The translations under genes and the position numbers were made by a program. A stretch of 64,000 nt of DNA from Bacteroidales bacterium (lineage in GTDB: Bacteria > Bacteroidota > Bacteroidia > Bacteroidales > UBA932), in the NCBI GenBank assembly GCA_017443465.1, contig JAFRXO010000073.1, positions 21,869 through 85,868 on the forward strand, given 5' to 3'. How positions within the stretch are numbered: position 1 is the stretch's first letter; each line of letters starts with the position of its first letter. Shown here in pieces: positions 17,190 to 62,644 of the stretch. Under the pieces are notes generated by a model. The model saw nothing but the letters and a program-made list of their open reading frames with translations. It ran no database searches and was not told the origin of the DNA.

Positions 17190-17315
17190 CGCTTTGGGGG
17201 CAGTTAGCCCTGCAAACCCGTGGTCGCCCGTGACCTCGTGAACGGGGGAACCGCCGCTAGCGGCGGTGGGATGGAGCGAAGCGGAAGGTTTGCAGGGCTA
17301 ACTGCCCCCAAAGCG
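17190..17315. repeat. Long inverted-repeat element, copy 1
   Basis: The 29-nt arms (17190-17218 and 17287-17315) are perfectly complementary and enclose a 68-nt core. The core contains CCCGTGGTCGCCC, a GC-rich hairpin CCGCCGCTAGCGGCGG and GATGGAGCGAAGCGG. The core is shared with copies at 52314-52447 and 62536-62644, in the same orientation, whereas the arms differ between copies but remain self-complementary. It fills most of the gap between convergent genes. It may act as a bidirectional terminator, a structured RNA or a small palindromic mobile repeat; no target-site duplication is obvious. Confidence 0.85.
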
Positions 17316-20703: not shown

Positions 20704-20777
20704 CGGGGTGTGGCGCAGTTGGCTAGCGCACCTGCTTTGGGAGCAGGGGGTCCCGCGTTCGAGTCGCGGTACCCCGA
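20704..20777 (+). tRNA. tRNA-Pro (anticodon TGG)
   Basis: A 74-nt cloverleaf. The acceptor strand CGGGGTG pairs with TACCCCG (one G-T pair), followed by discriminator A. The D arm contains GGCGCAGTTGGCTAGCGC, and the anticodon stem CCTGC/GCAGG encloses loop TTTGGGA, giving TGG. The T arm contains GTTCGAGTC. CCA is not encoded (CAG follows), as is common in Bacteroidota. Confidence 0.95.
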
Positions 20778-20780
20778 CAG

Positions 20781-20821
20781 AACGAAGGCAGCTGATCTTT
20801 TCAGGATCGGCTGCCTTCGTT
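20781..20821 (+). terminator. Hairpin after tRNA-Pro
   Basis: AACGAAGGCAGC (20781-20792) pairs perfectly with GCTGCCTTCGTT (20810-20821), and the loop can extend the stem through GATC/GATC. There is no T-tract after it, so it may be a factor-dependent terminator or a 3' end protecting structure. Confidence 0.6.
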
Positions 20822-20910
20822 GTATGTGCAGCCCATATTACAATTGCTCCTGAGCGGAAATTGACATGAAAATAGTACATTTGCAACAACAGATATTGTA
20901 ACACTGGACT

Positions 20911-52313: not shown

Positions 52314-52447
52314 GCAGTCCGCCGGCAGGTAGTCCTGGCAAACCCGTAGCCACCCTCGGCGTCGTTGAAAGGGAGGGGCCCGCCGCGAAGCGGGGGGAGG
52401 GATGGAGCGAAGCGGAAGGTTTGAAGGACTACCTGCCGGCGAACTGC
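52314..52447. repeat. Long inverted-repeat element, copy 2
   Basis: Arms of about 30 nt (52314-52344 and 52418-52447) pair with one mismatch and a small bulge. The core has CCCGTAGCCACCCTCGGC, TCGTTGA, a hairpin CCCGCCGCGAAGCGGGG and GATGGAGCGAAGCGG, matching copies at 17190 and 62536. Relative to copy 1, stem positions in GGCAGTTAGCCCT change to GGCAGGTAGTCCT, with the matching changes in the opposite arm. It lies between the convergent GH31 and carboxylesterase genes. Confidence 0.85.
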
Positions 52448-62535: not shown

Positions 62536-62644
62536 GCTTCTCCGGGGTGGGACAGCCCCGGGAACCCGTAGCCGCCCTCGGCTTCGTTGAGTGGGAGGGA
62601 TGAGCGAAGCGAAGGTTCAGGGGGCTGTCCCACCCCGGAGAAGC
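62536..62644. repeat. Long inverted-repeat element, copy 3
   Basis: Arms of about 31 nt (62536-62566 and 62614-62644) pair over GCTTCTCCGGGGTGGGACAG and beyond, with a small bulge near the core. The core is the shortest of the three: CCCGTAGCCGCCCTCGGC, TTCGTTGA, GGGAGGGATGAGCGAAGC, without the GC-rich inner hairpin of copies 1 and 2. Arm sequence differs from both others but self-complementarity is kept. It lies between the convergent AKR and LacI-family genes. Confidence 0.85.

Follow-up and report, generated by a model that had tools for sequence, protein, structure and literature searches.

The window analysed here, a 64,000-nucleotide stretch of DNA from a Bacteroidales bacterium, contains three hairpins that we consider fairly likely to be copies of a non-autonomous palindromic mobile element. 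The element would combine a one-strand core of ~70 nt, in which a pseudoknot is joined by a variable hairpin and a mini-hairpin of GNA type, with flanking arms that pair with each other and are nearly free in sequence. Its insertion sites would be intergenic gaps and, in a number of relatives, coding regions that it enters in frame.

Three inverted repeats with pairing arms had been described in an earlier sequence-only reading of the window; they are indeed present and are the longest it contains. Their features and neighbouring genes are as follows.

17190..17315, + strand: copy 1, whole element, with arms at 17190-17218 and 17287-17315 (from sequence, inverted-repeat finding and folding)
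17171 and 17324, convergent: ends of the copy 1 neighbours, a heparinase II/III-family gene and a peptidase C69 gene, respectively
17223..17246, + strand: predicted H-type pseudoknot of copy 1, with S1 GTC at 17223-17225 and GAC at 17232-17234, and S2 CCCGT at 17227-17231 and ACGGG at 17242-17246 (from sequence and family covariation)
17251..17266, + strand: inner variable hairpin of copy 1, CCGCCGC-TA-GCGGCGG, which varies between copies
17276..17282, + strand: mini-hairpin of copy 1 with a GNA triloop, GC-GAA-GC
52314..52447, + strand: copy 2, whole element, with arms at about 52314-52344 and 52418-52447, of which the repeat finder reports a 23-nt part, perfect but for one position
52278 and 52458, convergent: ends of the copy 2 neighbours, a GH31-type gene and a carboxylesterase-type gene
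52349..52373, + strand: predicted pseudoknot of copy 2, with S1 GCC at 52349-52351 and GGC at 52358-52360, and S2 CCCTC at 52353-52357 and AAGGG at 52369-52373 (4/5 pairs)
62536..62644, + strand: copy 3, whole element, with arms at 62536-62566 and 62614-62644; the inner hairpin is absent
62528 and 62759, convergent: ends of the copy 3 neighbours, an aldo/keto reductase gene and a LacI-type gene
62571..62595, + strand: predicted pseudoknot of copy 3, with S1 GCC at 62571-62573 and GGC at 62580-62582, and S2 CCCTC at 62575-62579 and GTGGG at 62591-62595 (4/5 pairs)

The arms of these palindromes are 23 to 32 nt long and pair within each copy while differing in sequence between copies; the complementary stretches measure 29 nt (100%), 23 nt (96%) and 31 nt (94%) in copies 1, 2 and 3, respectively. 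The arm differences quoted in that reading are real, and the arms of copy 3 also pair, as it had said. The core that it quoted as shared is that of copies 2 and 3, whereas copy 1 has CCCGTGGTCGCCCGTGACCTCGTGA; copy 3 is without the inner variable hairpin. With a threshold set at a minimum arm length of 16 nt, no more than two mismatches and a spacer not exceeding 150, the window holds five inverted repeats: these three and two with 16-nt arms, with none other above 16 nt. One mononucleotide-shuffled window gave three at the same threshold. RNA folding of the three copies is far stronger than that of shuffled sequences on the + strand (z = -10.4, -6.5 and -8.6) and on the - strand (z = -9.2, -7.0 and -8.8), with 0 of 200 shuffles as good in each case. 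The core of all three lies on the + strand, and all three occupy gaps between convergent genes, 7 to 114 nt from the flanking stop codons. Elsewhere in the window (20704-20825), a tRNA-Pro(TGG) is followed by a hairpin of 16 to 17 nt.

The core has a defined structure that covaries. In an alignment of 20 cores (A4) it comprises 13 pairs, with 95.7% of cells paired and 6 of the 13 pairs changed on both sides. None of 500 shuffles was as good on four of five covariation measures and the fifth (further pair types) lay below nearly all 500, the shuffle and sign tests used here overstating significance because the copies are related. Two helices, S1 and S2, were parsed in 89 cores with some letters fixed beforehand and the varying positions free. 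S2 is fully paired in 85 of these (CCCGT/ACGGG in 45, CCCAT/ATGGG in 24, CCCTC/GAGGG in 12, CCCGC/GCGGG in 3 and TCCAC/GTGGA in 1); S1 is GCC/GGC in 76, GTC/GAC in 7 and GAC/GTC in 1, with G-U variants in 4 and an imperfect helix in 1. By these patterns S1 and S2 interlock as a covarying, predicted H-type pseudoknot. The base between S1 and S2 tracks the penultimate base of the long loop, A occurring with AA or TA in 27 of 29 cores and G with GA in 59 of 60 (89 cores), an association that may reflect a tertiary contact or shared ancestry. The GNA mini-hairpin is paired in all 20 rows of A4, one of them changed on both sides, and GTRG stands at the start of the core in 18 of the 20 rows, its last G being paired in S1.

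The copies are not confined to the three that the earlier reading had counted. A covariance model built from them (R1) gives 28 matches in the window genome (G000), which reduce to 24 distinct places once four opposite-strand duplicates are dropped; two of the 24 are irregular, one ending at a contig end (L031) and one with an altered core (L032). The latter (G000:C64:21282-21444) is a related element in which the 5' half of the core is changed. In two further loci (L013 and L018; G000:C40:12040-12223 and C64:50244-50428) a longer, mutually similar sequence replaces the inner variable hairpin, perhaps as a nested insertion. A core-only model (R2), built from 18 copies of the window genome and two of genome G001, gives 24 matches in the window genome and has hits in 86 of the 101 genus genomes sampled. 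Those hits total at least 1146, a floor because the genus scan used stricter filters and at most 47 scored candidates per genome. Across an order-wide sample, with 24 candidates scored per genome, at least 4 of 198 genomes have matches, the window genome included. Two of the genomes with core matches in that sample, G426 and G576, belong to different families within the order, where transfer or contamination may be the source. One exact core match lies in the uncultured Bacteroidia record RUG14879.

Elements are ~110 to 185 bp long, with a core of ~70 nt and arms of ~23 to 40 nt, and from their sequences they are probably a family of small, mobile, palindromic DNA elements. No named family had been recognised at the outset, and none fits: Rfam finds only tRNA in the window and nothing at the element copies, and over seven element loci the best score is 26.9 bits against a threshold of 80, with no gathering threshold reached. 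A search of literature with partial coverage, by title and start of abstract, returned no description of the family. The repeats are more numerous than three, covary, and match no described repeat or RNA family among those compared.

Insertion is visible inside genes of relatives. BLAST among the fetched loci identifies orthologous element sites in several species, some of them within genes named by NCBIfam as RecG, KsgA, YgiQ, DnaX, an RsmF/NOL1-type methylase and, with a score of 300.9 bits just short of the 305 cut-off, AroB; two further host genes have no NCBIfam match. Both anchors of the recG site are present in 29 of 30 fetched loci, of which 21 are empty, with a linker of 17 to 18 aa, and 8 carry an insert (full core in 4, truncated core by eye in 1, neither in 3). 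For ksgA, 14 of 30 loci have both anchors; 5 are empty and 9 carry an insert, with a full core in 7. All 17 recG and ksgA inserts, which belong to relatives and not to the window copies, are in frame and free of stop codons, 11 of them with a full core. In some relatives the element would lie in frame in loops of housekeeping proteins and should be translated there. Another palindromic insert with G/C runs, of the CCCCCTTGAGGGGG type and relatives, occurs in frame at the same recG (L177, L183, L184, L178) and ksgA (L061, L172, L148) sites, alone or joined to the element.

By eye, the empty recG and ksgA sites hold neither arm and no palindrome, which indicates that the arms belong to the element and arrived with it. 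Near-identical cores with different arms in G001 had prompted the idea of target-derived arms, formed by an inverted target duplication on insertion; this was rejected, since the empty sites hold neither arm. Inspection of recG and ksgA by eye revealed neither a target duplication nor a parent transposon. For empty sites, no close relative of the window genome was found (best nucleotide matches 65 to 72% in 280 of 314 scored genomes), and the comparison used other genomes of the genus. In-gene copies were seen in relatives. The copies of the window genome are mostly intergenic, L028 and L024 being possible in-gene cases. A single open frame at L028:158-2605 links a FabF-like domain, by way of the element, to an apparent next gene, a possible fusion.

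The placement of the window copies raises the alternative of a structured non-coding RNA or a bidirectional transcription terminator of convergent genes, in which the arms would covary only through selection on an RNA hairpin at gene ends. The convergent gaps, the strong RNA folding and the RNA-like pseudoknot fit this, as do the positions of the 22 window-genome copies examined with a simple ORF heuristic (13 between convergent genes, 5 between tandem genes, none between divergent ones, 3 within an ORF and 1 at the edge of a contig). A terminator consensus scan, however, gives 0 sites around the three copies, although with loops of 3 to 8 it is blind to the element hairpin itself, and no T-run follows the arms by eye. 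Relatives carry copies inside coding sequence in both orientations, and presence or absence differs between close species. We regard a terminator or non-coding RNA as improbable.

Under the mobile-element reading the arms are part of what inserts. In 85 of 89 copies, 2405 of 2599 aligned positions are Watson-Crick pairs by local alignment; shuffled right arms reach a mean score of 12.6 and a maximum of 18, against the 24 required. At an intergenic site common to L015, L070, L072 and L073, the arms differ yet pair, with G:U steps in L070 and L072. Arm identity at fixed length averages 0.72 in 15 orthologous pairs, 0.63 in other within-genome pairs, 0.59 between genomes and 0.50 in shuffles, the cores of the orthologous pairs being 0.84 to 1.00 identical; arms resemble each other more by locus than by core type. 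In the four closest species at ksgA, flanks are 0.87 to 0.89, cores 0.90 to 1.00 and arms 0.49 to 0.71 identical, the arm value being lowered because arm lengths are unequal; at fixed length it is 0.69 to 0.73 in three of the four. Pairing nonetheless holds there at 25/26, 37/38, 28/30 and 32/34 aligned positions. The arms of orthologous copies stay paired while diverging faster than the core. Each arm folded as its own hairpin shows a weak tendency (group mean z -1.93 to +0.15 against shuffles over six genomes).

The residual mismatches are biased by strand. With the five innermost arm positions and four copies of weak arm pairing (L035, L136, L144, L065) left out, mismatches on the core strand are G:U in 60 cases versus A:C in 27 (p 5e-4), and G:A in 50 versus T:C in 4. 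Counting by element gives 32 versus 11 and one copy per orthologous locus 51 versus 26 (p 0.006), and without G043 the G:A bias is 27 versus 3. The window's own genome runs in the opposite direction, not significantly (G:U 1, A:C 6; p 0.12). G:T and G:A are the mismatches that DNA tolerates best. Neither a cruciform nor pure correction of one arm by the other should favour a strand. The bias therefore speaks for a folded core strand, either RNA or single-stranded DNA, and suggests that this one strand is the one that folds.

The sequence-only reading had taken the compensating changes as selection on a folded RNA or DNA cruciform. The compensation is borne out, even between true orthologues (L070/L072); a DNA cruciform, being symmetric, leaves the strand bias unexplained, and selection on a fold accounts for only part of the picture, given insertion, in-frame copies in relatives, homogenised and flipped cores, and arms that change faster than the core. 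Arm complementarity could alternatively arise from mutation alone, if template switching during replication repeatedly copied one arm onto the other and folding were not selected. Arms that outpace core and flanks in change and still pair are what this would produce, and the process has been proposed for other coding palindromes (PMC6649704). Template switching predicts strand symmetry, against the core strand's observed surplus of G:U and G:A, and the small core helices covary too. As the sole cause we think it rather unlikely; templated correction may still contribute to the covariation.

Cores are at least 97% identical in 32 within-genome pairs of copies whose arms average 0.64, so that identical cores stand beside different arms. 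One inner-loop site is A in all 7 fetched G074 copies of one subfamily and C in all 4 in G113, three of the loci being orthologous. In 4 of the 5 orthologous pairs between these genomes, both cores resemble a same-genome paralogue more closely than they resemble each other; the exception, L133, differs by 1 from its orthologue and by 2 from its nearest paralogue (L121/L133, with paralogues at 0 and 2). Cores are thus homogenised within genomes, with support mainly from this one close genome pair. The core also lies in opposite orientation in 3 of the 5 pairs (L112/L128, L121/L133 and L051/L109), and both orientations occur at ksgA (3 one way, 4 the other) and recG (2 and 2). Separate insertions at hot spots are an alternative source of the two orientations. 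Another reading is that the core inserts into palindromes already at the site, which would fit the flips, the arms that are alike by locus and the occurrence of one core with several arms in a genome. The empty recG and ksgA sites are without a palindrome, and the window holds no other inverted repeat with arms above 16 nt, which makes pre-existing palindromes very improbable.

A candidate mobilising enzyme is encoded in the window genome, which has one RAYT-like Y1 transposase of 302 aa (G000:C5:32159-33064). It matches NCBIfam REP_Tyr_transpos at E 1.8e-6, with 27.9 bits against a cut-off of 80, and scores 20.5 against 23 for a second family, both below the curated cut-offs. Of the 86 genomes that carry elements, 69 have a RAYT homologue, compared with 4 of the 15 that carry none (p 8.5e-5, kinship ignored). 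This co-occurrence, the family match and the GTRG at the start of the core, a motif of RAYT REPs (PMC3733652, PMC6006769), are consistent with a REP-type element mobilised by the genome's RAYT-like transposase. Set against this, a clear core match lies near 1 of 20 RAYT loci (L086; window-genome copy ~3 kb away), several RAYT genes adjoin palindromes of another kind, and the G of GTRG is paired in S1. Three genomes, G001, G013 and G014, carry 12, 11 and 15 copies and have neither a RAYT nor a Y1_Tnp match, G001 and G014 being incomplete; a Y1_Tnp search of 26 chosen genomes found the domain in G016, G076 and G105. Because cores do not flank RAYT genes and some element genomes are without Y1_Tnp, we assign no enzyme as mobiliser, and we give mobilisation by this transposase only a minor chance. 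The different palindromes lie at L086 1325-1370 and 3406-3455, L083 2482-2539, and L047 1881-1926 and 2061-2099; at L086 two near-identical ones stand on either side of the RAYT-like gene.

In the mobile-element reading, movement would proceed through a folded single strand, the core strand, as ssDNA or RNA, recognised by its shape and not by arm sequence. After insertion, the core might be exchanged between loci by ectopic conversion or re-insertion and might be inverted through the paired arms. Two processes would jointly maintain arm pairing: selection acting on the core strand in its folded form, and templated correction between the arms. Taken to its full extent, this would describe a two-part parasite: a strand-specific, structured core that copies itself around and replaces older cores either way, and locus-bound arms continually rewritten to pair, with mobility by the shape of one folded strand, no arm sequence needed, and a translated surface loop in recG, ksgA and dnaX. 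We advance this extended form tentatively, as a possibility with more against it than for it.

The best reading is of an element akin to Rickettsia-type or REP-like palindromic mobile elements, the closest known kinds being RPE and REPs with in-gene copies. RPE are described as palindromic repeats of ~150 bp that are scattered over intergenic regions and also occupy unrelated genes in frame (PMC10969869). By description, the present element is likewise a dispersed palindrome, in frame and stop-free in unrelated genes with empty orthologues in relatives. It differs in phylum and probably in sequence, and its arms keep pairing while diverging, whereas the repeats of RPE reportedly become less identical with time (PMC6649704); the RPE descriptions compared mention no pseudoknot core that covaries. 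With REP/BIME/REPIN elements and RAYT (TnpA-REP) it shares hairpins, convergent gene ends and in-gene copies, and its GTRG, with the last G paired in S1, may be a counterpart of the REP motif; REPs predominate at convergent gene ends, with in-gene copies in DNA replication and repair genes (PMC3733652). REPs, however, are 20 to 40 bp long with conserved stems, unlike an element of ~110 to 185 bp with free arm sequence that does not flank RAYT genes in 19 of 20 loci tested. MITEs are also small and non-autonomous, with inverted repeats and many dispersed copies, but the inverted repeats of the element are not conserved between copies, even beside identical cores. Integron attC sites are recognised as a folded strand with variable stem sequence, and offer an analogy for how the element might work through the shape of a folded strand. 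Long inverted repeats in the coding sequence of Nematomorpha mitochondria have arms that are actively kept complementary (PMC6649704); unlike those of the element, the arms there code for conserved residues of the gene in which they lie, and they share no mobile core.

Since its arms go on pairing as their sequence turns over, the element would serve as a natural system for separating folding selection from templated arm correction through the strand-bias test. In-frame palindromic insertions, known from Rickettsia and from REP-rich genomes, would gain a further setting in many species of one gut-type Bacteroidia genus, where a given site in an essential gene may be occupied in one sister species, vacant in another and flipped in a third. 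What sets it apart from the known kinds is pairing kept through fast arm change, a pseudoknotted core, and an apparent exchange of cores with flipping.
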